A DNA stretch of 64,000 bases. It comes from Arenicella chitinivorans (GTDB lineage Bacteria; Pseudomonadota; Gammaproteobacteria; Arenicellales; Arenicellaceae). The position numbers and the translations under genes were made by a program. Below the pieces are notes generated by a model that did not search any database, was not told where the DNA came from, and saw only the letters and a program-made list of their open reading frames with translations. Of this stretch, positions 8,087 to 19,703 are shown in pieces (the stretch's first letter is position 1; each line of letters begins with the position of its first letter). Location: contig NZ_BMXA01000003.1 of the NCBI RefSeq assembly GCF_014651515.1, forward strand, positions 62,001 through 126,000, in the 5' to 3' direction.

Positions 8087-8702
8087 CGTTCGCCTGAAGA
8101 ATCTTTATCTCGGTGTTAGGCCTGGTCAGCGCAACTTTAAGCGCAATTACAGAAAACGCATGACAGTCTCAGATCTCGTGAAGCGTTGGTCCGTCCGCGT
8201 AGCCTGCCAGCCCACCTGTGATCAACGTTTAGCAACGCAAACATGAGATTGGCGCTACGACACCGGGGCGTTGCTATCCACCGCTGATATCGATCCGAGC
8301 GCGACTGGCAAAGAGGCTGATTCATCAAGGGGCTGCGTACGAGTAGATCCTCATTTCAGTCGCCGCGCGTAACAATATCAGCATGACCTTCGGCACCGCG
8401 CAAGACGGAATCAGATCATTGCCATCTTAGCGACCGTCCACTGCGTCACCAGCCAAGGGTTAGGTCTGATAGACGGTTTTTGAACCTTTCTCGAGATGTG
8501 TTATTGGTTTAGGTCGCATCGGGTGATTGAAATTCAGTGGTTTGTAAGTGTTTGATTTTAAATAAATAAAAAATCATTAACTAATCATTACGCAGACATT
8601 AAACAAGTCGGTCGCGATCTTTTTATAGTTTTCTCATCGCAACACAGCAGCGTCAACGCAATGCAGGTTTGATGTTCTGCTAGAAGGTTACAAGAGGACA
8701 CT
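8087..8702 (+). other. Gene-free region with AT-rich promoter for 8703
   Basis: No convincing reading frame or RNA. The left 430 bp resemble decayed sequence with no family match I can see. The right part becomes AT-rich, carries the direct-repeat element at 8574-8592, and has a TATAGT hexamer at about 8625-8630 that could be a -10 site for the gene at 8703. Confidence 0.4.
8574..8592 (+). promoter_or_regulatory. TCATTA direct repeat, 11-bp period
   Basis: TCATTA begins at 8574 and again at 8585, the second copy extended to TCATTACG. The period is one helical turn, typical of tandem winged-helix (OmpR/CadC-type) binding. The same element with the same 11-bp period is at 11787-11805, on the other side of the CadC-like regulator gene. 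It lies about 110 bp upstream of the lipoprotein gene at 8703. Confidence 0.45.
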
Positions 8703-9140
8703 TTGTTAAATCGAAATTGCAAATCTCAGGTTAGAAAGCTGTCAATACTGGCGGTTTGCATTGGTCTGACGGGATGTGTGCCTTCGGATGAAGCGGAGGT
8801 TGCGATGGTGGCATTGATTGCGAATGCCAAGCAGTACCAACATCGACAGATTAAGACCTTCGGGTACTTAGCGATGAGCGACGAGCTTCGTTTGTTTTTG
8901 AATCGAGAGGATGCGCTAAACGGCAACTACTACCACTCGGTTTCGATTCAACAACTTACTGAGCGCGATCTGCAAAAAATCGATGCGTGTGTGAATCAAT
9001 ACGTTTCTGTCGCTGGCACATTTGATATGAAAAACAATCAACTCGTTTTCTCTCAAGCTGTGCGGTTTGAGGGCGGGGACAACAACATCTATTCACAACT
9101 CGTTTGTAATCACAACTTTAATATAAGAGGACAACAATGA
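8703..9140 (+). CDS. Putative lipoprotein, unknown function
   Basis: 145 residues from a TTG start preceded by AGAGGA at 8693-8698. The N-terminus has basic residues, a hydrophobic core and the lipobox LTGC (Cys25), so it should be a lipoprotein; the residue after Cys is Val, compatible with outer-membrane sorting. The body contains a fold-like segment (YQHRQIKTFGYLAMSDELRL, then QYVSVAGTFDMKNNQLVF) suggestive of a small beta barrel of OB type; this is a weak inference. Its stop codon overlaps the start of the next gene (ATGA at 9137-9140), implying translational coupling to a secreted Cys-rich peptide. Confidence 0.65.
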   Translation: MLNRNCKSQVRKLSILAVCIGLTGCVPSDEAEVAMVALIANAKQYQHRQIKTFGYLAMSDELRLFLNREDALNGNYYHSVSIQQLTERDLQKIDACVNQYVSVAGTFDMKNNQLVFSQAVRFEGGDNNIYSQLVCNHNFNIRGQQ

Positions 9141-9313
9141 AACTGACAAAACTTATTGCGACTTTGAGTGCGACTTTCATCCTTGGATTGGCAACTAGCC
9201 CGGCTTCTGCGTCGGCGTCATCGGGGGTAAATGCGGTGGATGAGCCAGGTGTTCTTTGTTATGTGTGCCCTCGGTGCTGTTCAAGAGACCCAAACATCGT
9301 GGGGCAAGAGTAA
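9137..9313 (+). CDS. 58-residue secreted Cys-rich peptide
   Basis: A short gene starting at ATG 9137, with AAGAGGA at 9125-9131 five bases upstream, and ending at TAA 9311-9313. The product has a clear Sec signal (MKLTKLIATLSATFILGLAT, then ASA sites near residue 26) and a mature part of about 32 residues. That part carries a tight cysteine cluster, CYVCPRCC, four Cys in eight residues, which could bind metal or form disulfides. Its start overlaps the stop of the lipoprotein gene, so the two are coupled. I recognise no family. A small bacteriocin-like, metal-binding or signalling peptide are all possible. Confidence 0.6.
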   Translation: MKLTKLIATLSATFILGLATSPASASASSGVNAVDEPGVLCYVCPRCCSRDPNIVGQE

Positions 9314-9403
9314 GTTTCCAGATTGTGGTGCTCTTCGACCCGGCACTGCAAATGTCTTGGTCTCAGGCTTACTCCTACCCTGAAGCCTGGGGAATCAAGG
9401 GGA

Positions 9404-9439
9404 TGCCAATGAGAGGACAGGACGTTCTCTCGGCATTTT
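9404..9439 (+). terminator. Stem-loop with T-run after the Cys-rich peptide gene
   Basis: TGCC (9404-9407) pairs with GGCA (9432-9435), and GAGAG (9411-9415) with CTCTC (9427-9431), followed by TTTT at 9436-9439. It could end the 8703-9313 operon before the convergent regulator gene. The stem has a 3-nt internal bulge, so strength is moderate. Confidence 0.4.
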
Positions 9440-9482
9440 CCCCGTTCTACCGTAGAGTTAAACGCAGTCGTGTTTATCGCTG

Positions 9483-11582
9483 CTAGTGGCGCTTTTCGAG
9501 AATTTTAATTTCAGTTTCTTCGTTCAAAAATTTGGGGAACAGCACGCGTTTCTGGTCGGCAGAAATGGTGTAATCCAGTAACGGATTGAGTATCGGAAAC
9601 AAAGTCTGGCGGTCCCGCGTTGTGAGATCGACATAAGTCAAAGTATTGGTATCCTTGCCAATCGATAGGTAATAGAACCCATTACCTCGCGCATACAACG
9701 CATCGTAGGCGTAGATGTTGGTGTCGTTGACCAGTTTTTCGACGGATTTGTCGGCAAGGTTCATTTTCCAGATTCCATTCTGGTGGTATTTGTAAAACAA
9801 CATGTCGCCGTTGGCGGTTAGCTCAGGGGCGTAGCCGCCGCGTTCAGTGATTTTCACTGGTGGCTCGTCGGTACCGAGTTGTTTTTGATAAATCTGCCAG
9901 TCGCCGTCCAGGTCCGAGGAAAAGTAGATCGATTTGCCATCCAGAGCCCAGCTGGCGGTTTCAATGCGTGACGGTTTAGAACCCTGCCAAATAGTTTGAT
10001 AGGTCTTTTTAGCGACATCAAAGGTGTATACCTCGGTGTCGGTCGTGGCCAGTATGGCGCTATCATCGGGTGACCAGCGTAAACGCGGGATTAGTCGTCC
10101 ATCGGTGAATTTACTGAGTTGATACTCTCGTTGCTTACTGCGTATCCAGATCTGGGGTTGCCCGCTTCGCAGCGACATAAACGCGACATCATCGGATTGA
10201 TTAGCAAGTTCGGGATACAAATCAATTTCACTGGATTGAATAACCGGTTCGTCAGTATCGCTAGCATCGGTGGTTCGTCCCCATATATCGACGCCGGTTT
10301 CGCCAGTCATGATGGCCAGTTTGTCTTCCAGCGGGTGTGCGCTGATCGCGTGTAAGGTGTCTGTGTTACCTAGGACTTGTTTGTGAAATTTGTGTTTCAG
10401 GGAATACGCGTAAACATCGTCGTTAGTATCTATGTAGTACAGGAATTCCCCATCATGAGACCAGGCCAGGGCTTTTCGCCAACCGTTCAGGTTGAACAAC
10501 GTGGTGATTCTGGAGGTGTGTAGATCAAGCACATTGACCTCGGTATTGCCCCAATTCAGGTCACGCGAGAAGGCCAGGCGACGATTGTCATTGGATAAGG
10601 CAATATGAATATCGCCTTTTGACTTGCCGCTTTCAGGGTTGGTAAGTTGCTCACGCTTTGAAGTCTTGGTGGAATACTTATAAATTTTGTATGGGTCGAC
10701 CGCCGAGAGTGAATCGGTGTAATAAATATGTTCGTCTTGGCCCCAAACGACTTCGTTGGGTAGGCCGCTGGCGTGGCAGTCGACAACTGGCGATGCCGTG
10801 GTATTGGTATCGTGCGTCTTCATTTGCATTATCTGGCACTGGCCTTCATGGTGCCGTACAAACACCAGAGAGCTGCCGTCAGGTGACCAAGATGGCGAAG
10901 TATCGTCACCACTGCCTCGAGTTAGTTGTCTTGGAGATTCGCCATCCACCGACTGCACGTACAGTTTAAAAAATGGTTCGCCTTTCGCTCGATGGGCATA
11001 CGCAATAGAATGCCCATCGGGCGAGTAAGCTGCGTCTTTTTCCTGCCCAATTAGGACACTGAAGGGTTTAATGAGATTAAACGCCTGCATGGCCCGATAA
11101 CTGGCAGACTTGGTCAAATAATACGATCCAACCCAGAAAGCGGCTACGAGCAATGGAAGGGCGACCAATAACGATAAAAATTTTGTTGAGTTAGTCCGAG
11201 TAGGCGACAGTGGCGCTTGGTCAATACTCGTTTGCGTTGGTGCCGGTGAACCAGGATCTGGCGCCGCTTGCCATTGCACTGGTTGCACTAACTGGTAGCC
11301 TTTTTTTCGTATCGTCGTGATATAGGCATTATTTTGGTCTTCGCCAAGTATTTTGCGAATTTGATTTATGACGCGATAGATCGCATGGTCGCCGACGATA
11401 CGCCCCTTCCAAACATGCTGGATCAGTTCCTCCAGACTCACAACTTTGTTGGGATTCTCAGCGAAATGAACTAGAACAGCCATGGCCAACGGTTCCACGA
11501 AGAACTCTTGGTTCCCGAGAGAAAGCTTGTTCTGGTCCGGCGATATTTGCCAGGCGCCAAGGGTAAAGGGTCTACTCATCAA
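9483..11582 (-). CDS. CadC-like transmembrane regulator with TolB/WD40-type propeller
   Basis: 699 residues. Residues ~5-100 form an OmpR/CadC-type winged helix (LGNQEFFVEPLAMAVLVHF, SLEELIQHVWKGRIVGDHAI, TTIRKKGYQLV). A Pro/Ser/Thr linker leads to one transmembrane helix at ~135-155. The rest is a periplasmic beta-propeller with repeated TolB-type blades (DAAYSPDGHSIAYAH, DTSPSWSPDGSSLVFV, ALAWSHDGEFLYYI, ASWALDGKSIYFSSD). Such proteins sense an envelope signal and bind DNA while in the membrane. It is divergent from the precursor-peptide operon, and its gene is bracketed by two copies of a TCATTA direct repeat, so it is the obvious candidate regulator of both neighbours. Confidence 0.88.
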   Translation of the reverse strand: MMSRPFTLGAWQISPDQNKLSLGNQEFFVEPLAMAVLVHFAENPNKVVSLEELIQHVWKGRIVGDHAIYRVINQIRKILGEDQNNAYITTIRKKGYQLVQPVQWQAAPDPGSPAPTQTSIDQAPLSPTRTNSTKFLSLLVALPLLVAAFWVGSYYLTKSASYRAMQAFNLIKPFSVLIGQEKDAAYSPDGHSIAYAHRAKGEPFFKLYVQSVDGESPRQLTRGSGDDTSPSWSPDGSSLVFVRHHEGQCQIMQMKTHDTNTTASPVVDCHASGLPNEVVWGQDEHIYYTDSLSAVDPYKIYKYSTKTSKREQLTNPESGKSKGDIHIALSNDNRRLAFSRDLNWGNTEVNVLDLHTSRITTLFNLNGWRKALAWSHDGEFLYYIDTNDDVYAYSLKHKFHKQVLGNTDTLHAISAHPLEDKLAIMTGETGVDIWGRTTDASDTDEPVIQSSEIDLYPELANQSDDVAFMSLRSGQPQIWIRSKQREYQLSKFTDGRLIPRLRWSPDDSAILATTDTEVYTFDVAKKTYQTIWQGSKPSRIETASWALDGKSIYFSSDLDGDWQIYQKQLGTDEPPVKITERGGYAPELTANGDMLFYKYHQNGIWKMNLADKSVEKLVNDTNIYAYDALYARGNGFYYLSIGKDTNTLTYVDLTTRDRQTLFPILNPLLDYTISADQKRVLFPKFLNEETEIKILEKRH

Positions 11583-11786
11583 TTATGTTTGGGCAGCGTA
11601 GGGTCAATCGCAAACTGTACCATACACTTTGCAGCAGGGACTAGCCGTTCAATCGGCGAAGGCGCGATGAAAATACCCAGGTTGTTGCATGTATTTGCTT
11701 GTCTTGCTGGCGAATTTTTATCGGCCTGTGACCTTTGGGTAGTCTAATTATTTAGGCGTAACATGTTGTATTTATTGATAATTTGT

Positions 11787-11805
11787 TCATTACATCGTCA
11801 TTACA
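11787..11805 (+). promoter_or_regulatory. TCATTACA direct repeat upstream of the precursor peptide gene
   Basis: TCATTACA occurs at 11787-11794 and 11798-11805, an 11-bp period. It lies in the 388-bp gene-free divergent region (11583-11970) between the CadC-like regulator and the precursor peptide gene, about 165 bp before the peptide start. It matches the element at 8574-8592 in both core and spacing. A candidate binding site for the adjacent regulator; this is inferred, not shown. Confidence 0.5.
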
Positions 11806-11970
11806 GTGATGCCAAATCAAAAGCTTGCAAAATTAACAAACTATTAGCCACAAATTACGTACCCATCAAACTCTAACACAGCAAATCTCTAAACTGGTCT
11901 CGTCGGTCAGGCATACACAGGTATGTCACTGACATTTAAATTTAACTTAACAATCAAACAGAGGTTCAAA

Positions 11971-12135
11971 ATGAAAAAGTTAGACCAAGAGAAAAAAGTT
12001 GCAGAGTTGTCAATTGAAAACATGGACATCATCACCGAAGTTGACGATACAGCAGGCGCGGCGCTGGCGAACGACGACCAAAATGAGTGGTTTGAGTTTT
12101 GGACGCTGACTAGCGCGCACAACGTTAACAACTAA
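11971..12135 (+). CDS. Candidate RiPP/microcin-like precursor peptide
   Basis: 54 residues. The ATG at 11971 is chosen because GAGG at 11961-11964 sits 6 nt upstream; an in-frame ATG at 11923 has no ribosome site. The leader is charged and helical (KKLDQEKKVAELSIENMDII). A junction DDTAGA at residues 25-30 fits C39-peptidase cleavage after Gly29-Ala30, with Glu23 at -8 and Val24 at -7. The core would be 24 residues, acidic and aromatic (NEWFEFWTLTSAHNVNN at its end), with no Cys, so lanthionines or disulfides are excluded. It precedes genes for an HlyD adaptor, C39 exporter, kinase and hydroxylase. Likely modification targets are Thr45, Thr47, Ser48 (phosphorylation) and His50 or Asn/Asp residues (hydroxylation); these are inference. 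Confidence 0.78.
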   Translation: MKKLDQEKKVAELSIENMDIITEVDDTAGAALANDDQNEWFEFWTLTSAHNVNN

Positions 12136-12169
12136 GCGAGCGTTCTTTACGCTTACGCGCATTGTGATG

Positions 12170-12239
12170 TGGTGGAGCCTTATGCTGGGAAACCTACCCC
12201 GAGATCCTACGCTCTCAGCTTGAGGCTCCACCATCTTTT
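12170..12239 (+). terminator. Strong hairpin between precursor gene and export/modification genes
   Basis: TGGTGGAGCCT (12170-12180) pairs perfectly over 11 bp with AGGCTCCACCA (12223-12233). An inner GCTG/CAGC can extend the structure, and TCTTTT follows. It lies 34 bp after the peptide stop and ends 23 bp before the HlyD gene. This is the expected place for an attenuator that lets the peptide be made in excess over its enzymes; an mRNA-stabilising structure is the alternative. Confidence 0.8.
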
Positions 12240-12262
12240 CGTCCTTATACGAAGCGTGTCTT

Positions 12263-13501
12263 ATGTCTCGAATTAATTCCAAATACGTCGCTGATCGACT
12301 ACCAATTTTCGTTGGGATCAGCATCTTGCTGTCTCCGATCATCGTGATCGTGCTGCTAAATTTTGTCCCTGTAACGGAACAGATTGAACAGGTCGAAGGT
12401 GTGATCTCAAGTGACAGTGGCCCCCGCAGTCTGCGTGCGGAACGTCAGTTTCTGGTTCGTAAAAACCACGTGCGTGTCAATCAACACGTTCAGAAGGGTG
12501 ATCTGTTGGTGGAGTTCGATGACCAAGAAACACGGCGGACCTTGGAGATGCAACGGTTAACTATCGAGAAGTTGGAATTTCAGATCCAGACTCTGGAATC
12601 TCAGCAAGCTCTGATCAGTGAGAATGTGGCATTGTTGGAAGACATTCATGATCAAAAAGCTCAGAAGAAAGTGTTGCTGGCTGCGCAGCAGGGGTCGCAG
12701 AAAAAGTTGCTGGACCAACAAAAAGAATTGTCAGTCAAAGCGGTTACCACGGCTAAGAAGCTGAGTCAGTCCTTAGCAAATGTTGACAGCCGCAGTATTT
12801 CAGAACTGCGTCGTCTGGAGATACTGCGTTCCACCAACAGCACGATTGGTGAATTGCAAACCCTAGAACAAAAACTAAGCGAACAGCCAATTTTGCATGC
12901 CCTAAAAGATATCGAAGCATCAATCGAGCTGTCATCGATTCGAGAAAAGATTGTCTCTTCTAAGATCGAGCTGAATGAGATTGCGACTCAGCTCAATGAC
13001 GCGCAGCAAAAAATTAAAGAAGAACAGCTGGCATATCAAAACCTAATGACTGAGGTTGCGCGGTTTTCGATTCGAGCACCCATAACCGGCACAGTAGCGC
13101 ACTTGTCTGACAACTTGAATAAGTCCAACATGATCAATAAGGATGAAGTGATTTTGATTATCTCACCTGATGTTGAACCAACGCTGAAAGCGCAACTGGC
13201 ACTGACGGATGAGCAGTATAAGGATGCACGCGTCGCACAGAATGTGAATCTAGAAATCTGGGCTTGGAACCATTTTAAACACGGCGTGGTGACTGGCAAG
13301 GTGGTCGCTATTTCACCAGAAAAAGTGACTTCGGAATTGTTAAATAAGCCGAGCTATATCGCCGATGTCGAAATTCTACAGATGCCCAAGGACTACTACA
13401 CTTTGAAACGGGGTTTCAGCCTCAAGGCAAATATCGATATTGGAACCATCAGTCTGCTTGACTACATTCTGAAGAAATTCAACCTAGAAAAACCGGCATA
13501 A
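12263..13501 (+). CDS. HlyD-family periplasmic adaptor of the peptide exporter
   Basis: 412 residues. There is a short cytoplasmic N-terminus, one transmembrane helix at ~14-35, then a lipoyl half-motif (VRVNQHVQKGDLLVEFDDQE, ~70-90). A long coiled coil follows (~90-270, rich in Gln/Lys/Glu/Leu heptads), then the second lipoyl half (FSIRAPITGTVAHL), and a beta-barrel/membrane-proximal domain to the C-terminus. It bridges the inner-membrane ABC exporter to an outer-membrane TolC-type channel, which is not encoded here. The gene is the first after the attenuator and stops 3 bp before the exporter gene. Confidence 0.9.
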   Translation: MSRINSKYVADRLPIFVGISILLSPIIVIVLLNFVPVTEQIEQVEGVISSDSGPRSLRAERQFLVRKNHVRVNQHVQKGDLLVEFDDQETRRTLEMQRLTIEKLEFQIQTLESQQALISENVALLEDIHDQKAQKKVLLAAQQGSQKKLLDQQKELSVKAVTTAKKLSQSLANVDSRSISELRRLEILRSTNSTIGELQTLEQKLSEQPILHALKDIEASIELSSIREKIVSSKIELNEIATQLNDAQQKIKEEQLAYQNLMTEVARFSIRAPITGTVAHLSDNLNKSNMINKDEVILIISPDVEPTLKAQLALTDEQYKDARVAQNVNLEIWAWNHFKHGVVTGKVVAISPEKVTSELLNKPSYIADVEILQMPKDYYTLKRGFSLKANIDIGTISLLDYILKKFNLEKPA

Positions 13502-13504
13502 ACT

Positions 13505-15970
13505 ATGAACGCTTTCGTCGAAAAAATTGTGTGCAGTAATCTAGGTGACAAACAACGCAACACCAATGATTGCGCCGTTAGCGTCGTCAAGACACTGTAC
13601 AACCTGAAAAAGATAAATATTAATCGTAACCAGATTAAGGCATCGCTGACCCTGGATGAAGAGGGCGTTTCTTTCCAAAGTGTCAAAAGTCATCTGGTGG
13701 CCAATGGTTTTGATTGCGATTACATCGCATTAGGAACCCAGTCCAATCCGCTGGCGCAGCTAGCCGACCGAACACCATTGATTGCAATGGTGACTGCTGG
13801 TTTGCGCAAGCACTTTATCTTGATCAAATCGATCTATAAAAACCACGCCTTGGTGATGGACCCAGCAAACGGTGAGTTTCGAAACTGGTCGCTTGAGACG
13901 TTAGAAGCAAAGCTCACGCATTCGACATCTAAGGTCAATGAAGACATCTTAATTGCACATACGCGACAGTACATTCAGGAGCGATTGGATTCGTATGGAC
14001 TGACAGTCGACGTGTCACTCAAAGCCAATTGCATCGAGACCTACAACAAACTAGGCTATTTTGATTGGTTCGCTAAGCAGCATGGGTTTCACGACACGCA
14101 AGATGAAAAAGCATTTCTAGGTTCGCTGATCGAGGCCGACGAAAAGAAGGTCTTGCCATCGCATTTTCGGAAGCTGCGTTACATCAACGACGCCACGAAC
14201 ATCAAAACTCCGGTGTTACTCACGGTCGATCTTGAAAACTACATTCAACCCGATGGTGTGGTGGAAGACAAACAACACAGTTCGGTGATCGCACGTTTGT
14301 TCGGCATCATTTTGCGTTCCAAGAAATCTTCTTGGTTGCTCTCGAGCTTCATGATGGTCGGATTTTTGGCTGCCATGATGACGTACATAGCTGTCTACGC
14401 GAATCAGATTCTGATCGACGAGATTTTTCCTAAGCGGCATATCCTGACCCTGTATTCATTCGCTTTTGTGCTGTTTATTTTTCGTTTTGGCGAGTTCTTT
14501 TTGAACGTACTCAAAACCGCCAGCCAGATATTTATGGATCAGATACTGGACAAATACTTCTATCAAACCTTCAGTCGCCAGTTGTTGTTTTCCAACGAGG
14601 AGTACATTCGAACCTACAGCAAAGGGGACTTGGCGCAGCGCGTCAATGACATTCTAAAAGTTAAGCAATTAGTCTCTAAATTTATCAACGACGTGTTGTT
14701 GAGTTCCGTCATCGTGGTGTTCTCGATTGGCATGTTGTTTTTCTACAATGCCACGCTTGCATTGATCGTATTTGGTATCGGCGCGCTGTATCTGGTGGTG
14801 TTTCGTTACGCGTCTTCCGTGGTGCGCAATTTGGAATCGACCCTGTTCACCGAGAAAGGCAAGTTGTTAAACACTCTGCTCGACAAAGTAGAGGGACATT
14901 CCATTATCCGCCGTTGTCAAAGCGAAACCTTTTTTATGGACGAAGATGCGGTCATCACTGAGAGCTATCTTCGCGTGCAGCAGAAAGCCCGGTTTACTGG
15001 CTTTTTCCTGTCTTACTTTCCACGCTTTATTAGCGTGATTGGTTCCATCGCGATGGTGATGGTGGCTGGGCGCTTACTCATTAACGATAACGCCTTGTCG
15101 CTGGGCCAGGTGCTGGCGGTGATTGGGCTGGCTGAGATTACCTTCAGTGCCATGCGCACGCTCCTTAGTGCACAACTTATGCTGCAGGAAAGTATTGTGG
15201 TGGTGGAGCGATTCTTTGACTTTTGCGGTGCTGAACCGGTGTCCGCGCCCAAAGTTGGTCAACGTAAGTCGATAAGTCGAATCGATATCCGTGACCTGCA
15301 CTACCAGTTTCCGAATCAGAAATTTGCATTGAACATAGATCGGATAGCATTTCACCAAGGTGAAACAGTGTACGTGGATGGCGCCAATGGCTGTGGTAAA
15401 TCCACGATGCTTAGTTTAATTGGTGGCTCGTTACAACCGACGGAGCCGCACACCATTCAGTACGTCGATCCCGACGGCGGGTTCGTTAGTGAGCCAGATG
15501 CGCGAAAAAGTGTTTTGCTGACACGACCTGAAGACAAGATTTTCAATAACACCCTTAATTTTAATATCTATTTGGGACGAGACACGCGCAATTTCGACAT
15601 CTACTCACTGGCAAAGAAAATCGGCGCCGATGACTTTATTTGTCCGAGCCAGCTTCATGTCGATGCGTTGATCAGCGACGGTGGCAGTAATTTATCGGCT
15701 GGGCAGCGTCGTAAAATACTTTTGTTACGGGCCATCGTGAGTGACTGTAGCGTGCTTATTTTCGATGAGATTTTTCGCGGTGTGGATAAAGCGTCGAAGG
15801 AGAAAATCTGTCACTTCTTCAATGAATTTGATAATCGGACCTTGATCTTCACCTCGCATGAGCCGATTGATCAGCTGCGGGTGGATCGCGTGATTTCGAT
15901 GGCTGGTGGTCGTGTCATTGACGACACCGCGAGTCATGACCAAACCATTATTTGTGAGGAGGCGGTGTAG
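13505..15970 (+). CDS. ABC exporter with N-terminal C39 peptidase (PCAT)
   Basis: 821 residues. The N-terminal C39 domain keeps its catalytic residues: Gln17 (oxyanion), Cys23 in NTNDCAVSVV, His103 in LRKHFILI and Asp119 in VMDPANG. So it should both cleave the leader after a Gly-Ala type site and export the core. A ~110-residue linker follows, then a six-helix transmembrane domain (~260-560). The nucleotide-binding domain has Walker A GANGCGKST (~627-635), signature NLSAGQRRKILLL (~729) and Walker B VLIFDEIF (~750) with the catalytic Glu. It sits between the HlyD gene and the kinase gene, which starts 2 bp after its stop. Confidence 0.93.
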   Translation: MNAFVEKIVCSNLGDKQRNTNDCAVSVVKTLYNLKKININRNQIKASLTLDEEGVSFQSVKSHLVANGFDCDYIALGTQSNPLAQLADRTPLIAMVTAGLRKHFILIKSIYKNHALVMDPANGEFRNWSLETLEAKLTHSTSKVNEDILIAHTRQYIQERLDSYGLTVDVSLKANCIETYNKLGYFDWFAKQHGFHDTQDEKAFLGSLIEADEKKVLPSHFRKLRYINDATNIKTPVLLTVDLENYIQPDGVVEDKQHSSVIARLFGIILRSKKSSWLLSSFMMVGFLAAMMTYIAVYANQILIDEIFPKRHILTLYSFAFVLFIFRFGEFFLNVLKTASQIFMDQILDKYFYQTFSRQLLFSNEEYIRTYSKGDLAQRVNDILKVKQLVSKFINDVLLSSVIVVFSIGMLFFYNATLALIVFGIGALYLVVFRYASSVVRNLESTLFTEKGKLLNTLLDKVEGHSIIRRCQSETFFMDEDAVITESYLRVQQKARFTGFFLSYFPRFISVIGSIAMVMVAGRLLINDNALSLGQVLAVIGLAEITFSAMRTLLSAQLMLQESIVVVERFFDFCGAEPVSAPKVGQRKSISRIDIRDLHYQFPNQKFALNIDRIAFHQGETVYVDGANGCGKSTMLSLIGGSLQPTEPHTIQYVDPDGGFVSEPDARKSVLLTRPEDKIFNNTLNFNIYLGRDTRNFDIYSLAKKIGADDFICPSQLHVDALISDGGSNLSAGQRRKILLLRAIVSDCSVLIFDEIFRGVDKASKEKICHFFNEFDNRTLIFTSHEPIDQLRVDRVISMAGGRVIDDTASHDQTIICEEAV

Positions 15971-15972
15971 TT

Positions 15973-17124
15973 ATGCAGCTTTACCAACAACGAGAATCGA
16001 TTCATTTTGAGGTAGCGAATCCAACCAGCGATCAGGTGATTGCGACGGTCACGCGCGGTCCAAGCAAAGCGCGATTTGCAATTAATCGAGCAATCATGAC
16101 TTTTGTGCAGCAGTTCGAAACACCTTGTACCACCGATGAGGCGATCCGCCGCTATTGTAAGCAAGAAAGAATCCAGTTGACCGACGCACGGCAGCGAGAT
16201 CTTCGTGCGTTCGCGCGCCAGATTGCTGCCACACTGCTCCTAAATCCGATTCACACCAACGCCGAAACCGCGGAGCAGTCGATCGCACCGCTCGGATTCG
16301 AGCACCGACGTACGTTTAAAGACAAGCGTTTTGATGCTGTGTGCTTGGTCAACACGCCAGACGGCTTGCAAGTGATCAAGAATATAAAAGAACAAGTCGT
16401 TACGCAGTCGGCACGTCGTGACATTCTGCGTGATCTCGAGAATGAGTTTCGGGTGCTCACGCGTCTAGACGGTGTGTCTGGGGTTGTTGCTGCGCGGACT
16501 TTCTGTGCTACCTCGCCGGCCTATTTCGCAATGGACTATGTGTGCGGAGATCGGTTGGACAAATACGTGCGTTCGCAGCCATTATGTTTGCTGCAGCGTT
16601 TGGACATGGCGATGCAGCTATTGAGGTTGTTTGCAGAGATCCACGACGCCGGTGTATTGCACGGTGATGTTCATCTTGGCAACTTTATGTGTTCGCCAAC
16701 ACGGCAGATAACCGTTATCGATTTCGGCTGTGCCAGCATGCAGGATTCAGACTACCGTCCTAGCGGTGGTGCAACACCACATTTTGCGCCACCCGAGCGT
16801 GCTTCCGAGAGCTGGACCCGGGTGTGCCATTCACAACCAACGCGAGCAAGCGAGTGTTACCAGCTAGGTATTGTGATTGCCTATGTGATGACCGGCACAC
16901 TGCCGTTTCGGGGTAAAACCTATCGCGAATTGCACCGTGCCATTATGTCCGCTGAATATAGGCTGCCAACAACAACGCCGGATGGGCAGCCGATTCCGCC
17001 AGCGCTGCACAATCTGATTGGCGACATGTTGCAGCGAAACCCCGATGACCGACCATCCGACCTGATGCGTCTGGCTCACCAATTTCAATCTTATGCAAAC
17101 CAGGAGAGTGCCCATGTTATTTAG
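15973..17124 (+). CDS. Protein kinase-fold enzyme with N-terminal RRE/PqqD-like region
   Basis: 383 residues. The kinase core runs from ~108 to 375: Lys136 in LQVIKNIK, a helix-C Glu near 156-158, catalytic loop HGDVHLGN (230-237, Asp232 and Asn237), DFG at 250-252, and the activation-end APPERAS. All catalytic residues are present, so it should be active. Residues ~10-92 have the strand-strand-helix-helix pattern of PqqD-like RiPP recognition elements (FAINRAIMTFVQQF, CTTDEAIRRYC, LRAFARQIAATLLL). That call is from pattern only. There is no lyase or cyclase domain, so it is not a class III/IV lanthipeptide synthetase. Its last 11 bases overlap the hydroxylase gene. Confidence 0.82.
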   Translation: MQLYQQRESIHFEVANPTSDQVIATVTRGPSKARFAINRAIMTFVQQFETPCTTDEAIRRYCKQERIQLTDARQRDLRAFARQIAATLLLNPIHTNAETAEQSIAPLGFEHRRTFKDKRFDAVCLVNTPDGLQVIKNIKEQVVTQSARRDILRDLENEFRVLTRLDGVSGVVAARTFCATSPAYFAMDYVCGDRLDKYVRSQPLCLLQRLDMAMQLLRLFAEIHDAGVLHGDVHLGNFMCSPTRQITVIDFGCASMQDSDYRPSGGATPHFAPPERASESWTRVCHSQPTRASECYQLGIVIAYVMTGTLPFRGKTYRELHRAIMSAEYRLPTTTPDGQPIPPALHNLIGDMLQRNPDDRPSDLMRLAHQFQSYANQESAHVI

Positions 17125-18307
17125 TCAACTTGATGACTCGACACCGGACAATGGTGTTGTCAGTGATTTCACCCTAGAAAGTGTGCTGCGGCCGCTGACC
17201 GCACAGGACTTTTTTGATGATTATTGGGAGAAAAAGCCCTTTATCATTAAACGCAATAACCCAGATTACTATAAAGAGATTCTGAATCTAGAGACCTTGA
17301 ACGAAGTGTTTGCTTCTCGTATGTTTCGAGCGTCGGACATGCGTATTTTTAATAATGGTGAGAAGCGTGAATTCCAAGCATTTTCGAAGAAGAACAAAGC
17401 CAACGGCAACGTGGTGTTGAAAGAATTTGAAAATGGTTCGACAATTATTTTTGAAAACTTGGATCGCAATCATCTGCAGCTCGCCAAATTGATTCGAAAC
17501 CTTGAAAATGAACTGCATATTGATTTGCGTACCAATGTGTATCTCACGCCAGCGCAGGCAACCGGCTTCAAGGCACATTGGGATACACACTGTGTGCTGG
17601 TGATGCAGGTTCACGGCACCAAGCAATGGGAGATTTATGATAACCCGGTACCACTGCCCACAGAGAATCAAAAATACGACCCAGAGACCGGCGCGAAGGC
17701 GCAACACATTACCTCATTTCTAATGGAAGAAGGTGACATTGCTTATATTCCGCGCGGCTTCGTGCACAAAGCCAGTGCGCAGGACCAAGCTAGCTTGCAC
17801 GTGACTATGGGGCTGCGTCCCTTGGCGGTAAAAGACTTGTTGCGTGAGGTATTAAACAGTGTTTGCAAACAACATGTCGATCTTCGGCATGGTTTATTAC
17901 CCAAAGGCGAATTTGATGATGAAGCCTTGCGTGCCCAGTTGGTTGAGATCATGCAGCAGGCCGACTTATCTAAGTACCGCGAGCGGCTATACAAGAAATA
18001 TATTCTAGAACGGTATCCGATTCTGGACACGCAACTCAGCAGTTTGGTCAAAAATAATGTGATCGAGCAAGAAACTGATTGCCAAGTGAAACCCCACATG
18101 GTGTGGAAAGTGTTCGAAAACGAGTCGCAGTTGTCACTGTTGTTCGACGGTAAGTCAATGCATTTTCCGAAAGCCATGAAACCAAGCCTGACGTTCTTCG
18201 AACAATGTCGAAAGTTCTGCGTTGATCAAATTCCGGGTCTTGATCAAAAGAGTCGTCAAATATTAGCACAGCGTCTGGTGCATGAAGGCTTTCTAGAGGT
18301 GCATTAG
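17114..18307 (+). CDS. JmjC-domain Fe(II)/2-oxoglutarate hydroxylase, ribosomal-oxygenase type
   Basis: 397 residues from ATG 17114, chosen over an upstream in-frame ATG at 17093 because AGGAGAG at 17102-17108 is correctly spaced. The cupin/JmjC core carries the iron triad His155-x-Asp157 (FKAHWDTHCVLVM) and His218 (IPRGFVHKA). The basic residue in GTKQWEIY probably contacts 2-oxoglutarate. The C-terminal ~100 residues look like the winged-helix domain of the YcfD/MINA53/NO66 group, which hydroxylates Arg or His of ribosomal proteins. Here it lies inside a peptide export operon, so the precursor peptide is the more likely substrate. Overlap with the kinase gene implies coupled translation. 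Confidence 0.87.
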   Translation: MLFSQLDDSTPDNGVVSDFTLESVLRPLTAQDFFDDYWEKKPFIIKRNNPDYYKEILNLETLNEVFASRMFRASDMRIFNNGEKREFQAFSKKNKANGNVVLKEFENGSTIIFENLDRNHLQLAKLIRNLENELHIDLRTNVYLTPAQATGFKAHWDTHCVLVMQVHGTKQWEIYDNPVPLPTENQKYDPETGAKAQHITSFLMEEGDIAYIPRGFVHKASAQDQASLHVTMGLRPLAVKDLLREVLNSVCKQHVDLRHGLLPKGEFDDEALRAQLVEIMQQADLSKYRERLYKKYILERYPILDTQLSSLVKNNVIEQETDCQVKPHMVWKVFENESQLSLLFDGKSMHFPKAMKPSLTFFEQCRKFCVDQIPGLDQKSRQILAQRLVHEGFLEVH

Positions 18308-18310
18308 CGT

Positions 18311-19588
18311 ATGGTTCGGCGCTGGCGTCGTATAAGTATGTGGATCGGGTTGTCCCTCATTATCATCGCCCTGACGTGGTTTGTCCTTGCCATGTCACGG
18401 GCGGTGGTGGTGTTCACAGAAGGGGGTATTTATCAACGCATCATGATTCCGGTTGGGGCAAAGTTTCTAGCCTGGCGTGCAGACTTGGCAATCCATGCAG
18501 AGCAACCCGATTTGCGTATGCCACAAGGACCAATTGTGGCACCACGCGCGGATAATCGCTATGAAGTTTCTTGGGTGTGTGGTCAAGATGTACAGCGTGA
18601 ACTGGTGACAGCAACCGAAATTGACCTCCAATGTCGAGATCATCGGCGACATATTCATTGGATGACAACACAAGCAACACAGCGGCCCTTCAGCTCAGAC
18701 AACAACGTAGCCGTGATCAGCGATTTAGAGGGGAATTTGGCGTATTTTCTGGATTGGGGTAAACACGCTGGTGTATTAGATGATGCTGGGCGATGGGCCT
18801 TTGGAGATGGTCAGCTGGTGATTCTTGGTGACAGCGTGGATCGTGGTCGCCAGGTTTTCGATTTGCTGTGGAAATTGCATGCACTTGAATATGAAGCAAC
18901 CATCGCGGGTGGTGCGGTACATGTAATTTTAGGCAATCATGAACAGTACGTGTTGCAAGGCCGACTCTCGAGTGTGGAACCGGAACACCTTTGGGCCACT
19001 GAACAAATGATGCCGTATGCGGATGCCTGGTCTGCTCAAACGGTGCTTGGTCGGTGGTTGCGCAGTAAACCAATTATGCTGACGCTGGGCGACACGCTAT
19101 TCGTGCATGGTGGCATCAGTCCCAGTGCATTACAGCTGGGTTTGACGGTGGAACAGTGGAATCAGCGGCATCGCAGTGCCCTTATGCTCAACAATCATGA
19201 TCCTCAAGTATTCGGGCCAACGTCGCCGACGCAATACCGTGGTTACTTATATGCAACCGACGCCTATTCGCTGGCAACCCAATCGCACATTGAAGCAACG
19301 TTAACACAGTTCGGTGTCCAACGAATCGTGGTTGGCCATACGCAGACAGAGGCTCTAACACCGCGTTTTAATAATCGAGTCTTCGCAATCGAGCTGGGCG
19401 AACACGCTGGCGACTATTTAATGATCATGAATCATGAGCCGGTGGTGAAGCAGAGCGAACTACGCAAACAGCGATTTCGTGACCCCAATACACATCAGCG
19501 ACAATTTGAATTACTTAACCGCTCAGACTGGCGAGCATTTTTTGGTGTGTTTATTACGGCAGGTCGATCTGTTTTTGCGTCTATGTGA
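18311..19588 (+). CDS. Membrane-anchored PPP-type metallophosphatase, catalytic domain probably periplasmic
   Basis: 425 residues. A basic N-terminus (RRWRR) precedes a transmembrane helix at ~11-29, so the bulk should lie outside the cytoplasm. After a ~100-residue extra domain come the PPP motifs: SDLEGN (Asp138, Glu140), GDSVDRG (172-178), LGNHE (207-211), VHGG (265-268) and VVGHTQ (340-345). The first motif has Glu where the family normally has His (DxH), which may alter metal choice or activity. The start is 3 bp after the hydroxylase stop, so it is the last gene of the five-gene block. A peptide-phosphate substrate is an inference from context. Confidence 0.83.
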   Translation: MVRRWRRISMWIGLSLIIIALTWFVLAMSRAVVVFTEGGIYQRIMIPVGAKFLAWRADLAIHAEQPDLRMPQGPIVAPRADNRYEVSWVCGQDVQRELVTATEIDLQCRDHRRHIHWMTTQATQRPFSSDNNVAVISDLEGNLAYFLDWGKHAGVLDDAGRWAFGDGQLVILGDSVDRGRQVFDLLWKLHALEYEATIAGGAVHVILGNHEQYVLQGRLSSVEPEHLWATEQMMPYADAWSAQTVLGRWLRSKPIMLTLGDTLFVHGGISPSALQLGLTVEQWNQRHRSALMLNNHDPQVFGPTSPTQYRGYLYATDAYSLATQSHIEATLTQFGVQRIVVGHTQTEALTPRFNNRVFAIELGEHAGDYLMIMNHEPVVKQSELRKQRFRDPNTHQRQFELLNRSDWRAFFGVFITAGRSVFASM

Positions 19589-19703
19589 TGTATTGTGAAT
19601 ACGAATTTCACCACCAGACGGTATGTTAGTTCTGTCGCCGATTAGTAACATAATCGTGGTAATACTATTCTAGACAAAGATGTGATTTGATCAGGGGAAG
19701 GGT

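Follow-up and report, generated by a model that had tools for sequence, protein, structure and literature searches.

A stretch of 64,000 nucleotides from Arenicella chitinivorans (contig NZ_BMXA01000003.1, positions 62,001 to 126,000 of the forward strand; hereafter the window) contains a gene for a ToxR/CadC-like, presumably membrane-anchored regulator, which is flanked by two head-to-tail repeats of the hexamer TCATTA, designated sites A and B. From sequence comparisons, we consider it probable (about 0.78) that these repeats are operators of the regulator encoded between them, and that this regulator controls three units. In this genome its regulon most likely comprises an operon for a lipoprotein-like protein and a Cys-rich peptide downstream of site A, an operon resembling those for ribosomally synthesized and post-translationally modified peptides (RiPPs) downstream of site B, and the gene of a 702-aa secreted protein on another contig, preceded by a related site (site C). 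A first-pass annotation had placed the Cys-peptide and RiPP-like operons in one regulon; this proposal gains support from the rarity of the repeat, its footprints in three other genomes, co-occurrence and held-out motif scoring, and both units stand, joined by the 702-aa protein gene outside the window as a third member.

On the plus strand, site A carries TCATTA at 8574-8579 and 8585-8590, followed by a C at 8591; ACATTA at 8596-8601 adds a third half-site in the same phase, which is kept in relatives. Site B, also on the plus strand, carries TCATTA at 11787-11792 and 11798-11803, separated by a 5-bp spacer and followed by a C at 11804; the two sites lie 3.2 kb apart with the CadC-like gene between them. 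The 11-bp repeats had been recognized in the first-pass annotation, with end coordinates (8592 and 11805) that were off by one or two bases; its observation that TCATTAC is common to the downstream half-sites proved accurate, as did its statement that each repeat precedes a rightward unit, the distances being 101 bp from site A to the start of the lipoprotein-like gene (8703) and 167 bp from site B to the ATG at 11971. OmpR/PhoB-type operators are recognised by half-sites that follow each other head to tail upstream of a promoter, at intervals of one helical turn (10-11 bp); here every site has an 11-bp period, site A with three half-sites and site C with as many as five positions in phase.

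The whole genome was scanned by pattern searches and by a motif model. In its 4,031,349 bases (17 contigs, both strands), TCATTA-N5-TCATTA occurs only at sites A and B, against a chance expectation of about 0.38 copies (second-order estimate), and the reversed control pattern does not occur. Thus the genome-wide scan suggested earlier returned two copies, both flanking the regulator gene, and the scatter of random copies that had been named as fatal to the proposal was looked for and not found; the earlier remark that no third copy had been seen holds for the exact motif genome-wide, and not for the related CCATTA-N5-CCATTA of site C. The window's two exact matches compare with none in 100 dinucleotide shuffles, and since the motif had been picked by eye, all hexamers at periods 7-24 were scanned in the window, where no other exact tandem pair recurred within 4 kb. 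The shorter pattern CATTA-N6-CATTA has nine matches in the genome, four of them within sites A, B and C; of the other five, four fall within coding sequences or at their start, and the fifth (C1:124988) is intergenic with no correctly oriented gene downstream, and these five were set aside. The repeats might in principle be a short AT-rich word recurring by chance, in view of the 31 single copies of TCATTA in the window (both strands) and of the zero to three exact tandem copies in each genus genome that lacks the regulator, which themselves look like chance, several being intragenic and without shared context. The absence of any other recurring tandem hexamer, the orthologous positions of the sites in other genomes and the held-out ranking of site B make such a coincidence extremely improbable.

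Conservation was studied in a genus sample of 18 genomes, in which the present one is termed G000, and in a wider set of 100 relatives. The regulator is encoded in four of the 18 (G000, G005, G006 and G008), and among the 100 relatives the lipoprotein and the 702-aa protein are found in the same four genomes only, the latter as a partial copy in G006. Outside the genus, a search of 369 genomes of the class with a threshold of E<=1e-100 found no regulator orthologue. In G005, identity to the window's proteins is 58% for the regulator and 45-47% for the lipoprotein, and the exact motif again occurs just twice genome-wide: one copy precedes the lipoprotein gene and the other, at a distance of 3.17 kb, the 702-aa protein gene, with the regulator gene between the two copies. 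The lipoprotein promoter reads TCATTA-N5-AAATTA-N5-ACATTA in G008 and TCATTA-N5-ACATTA-N5-ACATTA in G006. When the four lipoprotein promoters are aligned, invariant columns make up most of the half-sites and of the -10 hexamer, which is TATAGT, or TACAGT in G005, and keeps its spacing in all four; much of the remainder is variable. Two further arrays were seen in the genus: an intergenic triple TCATTA array with an 11-bp period in a genome without the regulator (G012:C181, L032:5539-5566), and four tandem 11-bp units (CATTACCTAGT CATTATCTAAT CGTTATCTAAT CATTATCTGGC) at G005:C1:142162, where no coding sequence is apparent; these units may be a mini-satellite or may serve a different winged-helix regulator as operator.

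The 702-aa secreted protein was first met adjoining the regulator in G005 and G008, and its gene in the present genome lies at C2:83161-85269, with site C at C2:83052 upstream of it. Its promoter sequence (G000, CCATTACTTTTCCATTAGATC; G005, TCATTACTTTGTCATTAGACT; G008, CCATTACGTTTCCATTAGATC) contains (T/C)CATTAC-N4-(T/C)CATTAGA in all three genomes, followed downstream in exact 11-bp register by weaker copies (ACTTA/CCTTA/CCTTA, plus CATAA in each genome), and can be aligned over about 60 bp without insertion or deletion. The gene is divergent from the regulator gene in G005, upstream of it on the same strand in G008, and remote from it in G000; as the site is kept in three different arrangements, it travels with the 702-aa protein gene and not with the regulator. 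The protein of the present genome is 72% identical to that of G005 (69-72% across G005 and G008) and belongs to no Pfam family; an assignment as a MACPF-type pore-former was dropped, there being no Pfam or PDB match and the structure model being useless (mean pLDDT 30.5). A distant homologue (22% identity) is carried by a Salinimonas iocasae plasmid (NZ_CP039853.1), with no annotated lipoprotein operon nearby and a winged-helix gene about 7 kb off.

Scoring with held-out matrices also singles out site B. A 19-bp matrix built from the three 702-aa-gene promoters alone gave site B the top score among 127,964 window positions (17.1, the runner-up having 13.4). A matrix from the lipoprotein promoters alone placed it second in the window behind site A, and with one from other genomes' sites alone the top two places in the window went to A and B, in that order. 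When a model of all eight sites was run on the present genome, nothing but site A (25.1 bits), site C (20.1) and site B (19.4) emerged even at E<=10; across eight genomes, the top score outside the module was 15.4 bits. Because these eight sites were used to build the model, their own scores are partly circular, a reservation that touches neither the held-out test nor the lack of additional sites.

The product of the gene between the sites has an N-terminal winged helix (about residues 7-104), a hydrophobic segment at about 136-157 (FLSLLVALPLLVAAFWVGSYYL), read from the sequence by eye, and a C-terminal TolB/PD40-like beta-propeller (about 180-697), which we place outside the membrane, presumably as an extracytoplasmic sensor. 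PF00486 matches residues 30-98 with 52.6 bits (cut-off 26.2), and there is no receiver domain. This combination of DNA-binding domain and sensor is that of the ToxR/CadC-like class; by its sequence the protein is a member of that class, but not CadC, as the CadC equivalog PRK10153 (NCBIfam) scores 90.6 bits where 400 are required, with the match confined to residues 1-129. Compared with the PDB, the DNA-binding domain matches CadC best (5ju7, E 7e-19); the CadC domain makes base contacts through His66, Gln70 and Lys95 and requires Thr69 for activity (PMC5430869). Upon alignment, His66 is kept and Tyr69 and Arg70 stand where CadC has Thr69 and Gln70, which is in keeping with a half-site unlike that of CadC; all three residues are identical in the four orthologues, and the recognition region is near-identical across them.

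By analogy, the system would work like those of the ToxR/CadC/PhoB type. It shares with E. coli CadC the order of winged helix, hydrophobic segment and C-terminal sensor as well as His66, and differs from it in the propeller, in Tyr69/Arg70 and in the head-to-tail operators. Vibrio cholerae ToxR is a membrane-anchored winged-helix protein, as is predicted for the present regulator, and also has direct repeats separated by 5 bp, its tox-box being TNAAA-N5-TNAAA (PMC8517210); its half-site and sensor are different, and no ToxS-like partner was identified here. The same 6-N5-6 geometry is found for KdpE, which binds two 6-bp AT-rich direct repeats (TTTATA, TTTACA) with a 5-bp gap (PMC3264566), although KdpE and PhoB are soluble, phosphorylated two-component regulators. 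Such generality raises the possibility that the sites are real operators of another OmpR/PhoB-family protein, e.g. a two-component response regulator, with the CadC-like gene as a target or bystander, and the genome does encode more candidates of a similar kind (18 at a first look with the regulator profile). On the other hand, the sites, the lipoprotein, the 702-aa protein and the CadC-like regulator are confined to the same four genomes, a general response regulator would be expected to have more than three sites, of which none further were found, and the regulator gene of G006 has no site of its own; we therefore regard this alternative as unlikely.

Several observations weigh against the assignment of the sites to the CadC-like regulator, in particular that of site B. 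CadC itself is described with head-to-head sites (TTAxxxxT) of weak specificity (PMC5430869); the binding of tandem half-sites which the first-pass annotation ascribed to OmpR/CadC-type winged helices agrees with the geometry of KdpE and ToxR, but not with that of CadC. The two module sites of G008 have two mismatches each, a level that is reached in 1-6% of same-region shuffles. Since the RiPP-like operon is present in no other genome searched, site B has no comparable relative and hence no footprint. Its third half-site is weak, it lies 167 bp from the start codon compared with about 91-101 bp elsewhere, and no good -10 hexamer is found at the matching position. Furthermore, its full 31-bp held-out scores are ordinary (ranks 4, 6 and 10 of 127,940), and as its third position is unlike that of site A, the support for site B comes from the 19-bp core of two half-sites.

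We infer binding, activation and signal as follows. The cytoplasmic winged helices of a membrane-anchored dimer or oligomer would occupy successive NCATTA half-sites in head-to-tail orientation, spaced by one helical turn, in the manner of OmpR/PhoB-family proteins, and the promoter-proximal half-site of site A, lying over the -35 region, would allow activation through contact with RNA polymerase, while the TolB-like propeller beyond the membrane would sense an envelope or extracellular signal. A cue of this kind is suggested by the propeller together with the co-encoded lipoprotein and Cys-rich peptide. The third half-site of site A (ACATTA) overlaps the -35-like hexamer TAAACA of the likely lipoprotein promoter; the promoter scan gave no enrichment over shuffles. 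This overlap could also mean that the regulator is a repressor of the units, half-site 3 blocking the -35 region, and ToxR-like proteins are capable of repression. However, a poor -35 hexamer is the usual mark of activator dependence, as in promoters where the activator stands in for it, the sites lie at or upstream of the -35 region rather than over the -10 hexamer or the start, and CadC activates its target operon. Activation is thus favoured over repression by about three to one, the latter being a minority possibility.

The segment that carries site B provides further clues to its role. The closest relative, G006, is collinear with the window through position 11629, and collinearity resumes at 19593 after about 84 bp of G006 sequence, so that it lacks the 8 kb holding site B and the RiPP-like operon; this argues that site B belongs to the RiPP unit. 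The segment has a G+C content of 47.7%, close to the 48.7 and 50.8% of its surroundings, and composition therefore cannot distinguish gain from loss; the simplest reading is a lineage-specific RiPP operon that carries, or has acquired, the regulator's operator, while a loss in G006 is also conceivable. As site B is located in the intergenic region between the regulator gene and the RiPP-like operon, it might serve only the autoregulation of the divergent regulator gene. We consider this very unlikely, as its orientation fits the rightward unit, the G006 regulator gene has no such site, and the counterpart site in G008 precedes the 702-aa protein gene instead of the regulator gene. No similar RiPP operon was found among the 100 relatives (by a JmjC search) or in the 369 genomes of the class (by a kinase search), both searches giving distant single-enzyme matches only, at no more than 32-34% identity. 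Another JmjC-containing cluster of the genus (G002:C69, L084:1038-6148) lies beside a transposase-like gene, and its 738-aa JmjC protein is 32% identical to that of the window over about 220 residues.

The features of the window are listed in Table 1. The lipoprotein-like protein belongs to no Pfam or NCBIfam family. The 58-aa Cys-rich peptide has homologues in all four module genomes, in which the core LC-x2-C-x-[KRP]-C-C is kept; it is possibly a metal-binding, redox or signal peptide.

Table 1. Coordinates of sites, promoter and genes in the window
Feature	Positions	Strand	Evidence or remarks
Site A, three in-phase half-sites, 11-bp period	8574..8601	+	G005, G006 and G008 show almost no variation in the half-site columns
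Likely lipoprotein-operon promoter: -35-like TAAACA (8600-8605), 18-nt spacer, -10 TATAGT (8624-8629)	8600..8629	+	9/12 consensus
Lipoprotein-like secreted protein, 145 aa, start TTG	8703..9140	+	First gene 3' of site A; open reading frame (ORF), homologues
Small secreted Cys-rich peptide, 58 aa, C-x2-C-x2-C-C	9137..9313	+	Overlaps lipoprotein gene by 4 bases
ToxR/CadC-like regulator, start TTG 11582 or ATG 11579	9483..11582	-	Family profiles, PDB comparison
Segment missing from G006	11630..19592		Holds site B and RiPP-like operon
Site B, TCATTA twice, 5' of RiPP-like operon	11787..11803	+	Pattern scans, held-out matrices
Putative RiPP precursor, 54 aa	11971..12135	+	ORF
HlyD-type membrane fusion protein	12263..13501	+	PF13437; TIGR01843 below curated cut-off
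C39-peptidase ABC exporter	13505..15970	+	PF03412, PF00664, PF00005
Stand-alone protein-kinase-like enzyme	15973..17124	+	PF00069; LanL kinase region below curated cut-off
JmjC/cupin hydroxylase-like enzyme	17093..18307	+	PF08007
Calcineurin-like metallophosphoesterase	18311..19588	+	PF00149

Judged from the genomes compared, the ancestral module appears to consist of the regulator, the lipoprotein, the Cys-rich peptide and the 702-aa protein, to which the RiPP operon would be a lineage-specific addition with its own copy of the site. Tentatively, and with somewhat less than even confidence, we suggest that the propeller regulator senses an envelope or competitor signal, perhaps through its own lipoprotein and Cys-peptide products, and coordinates the secreted proteins, and that the 8-kb kinase/JmjC RiPP operon was recruited through the operator. 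A precedent for ToxR-like control of bioactive compounds is WmpR of the marine gammaproteobacterium Pseudoalteromonas tunicata (PMC12153261), which is likened to the present regulator by this description. A literature search, covering few subscription journals, found no published DNA site or regulon for winged-helix regulators with a TolB-like/PD40 sensor; if our assignment is true, PD40-type CadC-like regulators would gain their first defined operator and regulon, with operator, exact half-sites, regulon and regulator readable together from sequence. The assignment would also suggest a way of turning on a RiPP-like operon that is still uncharacterised, by expressing the regulator or its DNA-binding domain, and would represent a natural case in which a biosynthetic operon has joined a regulon that was already there.

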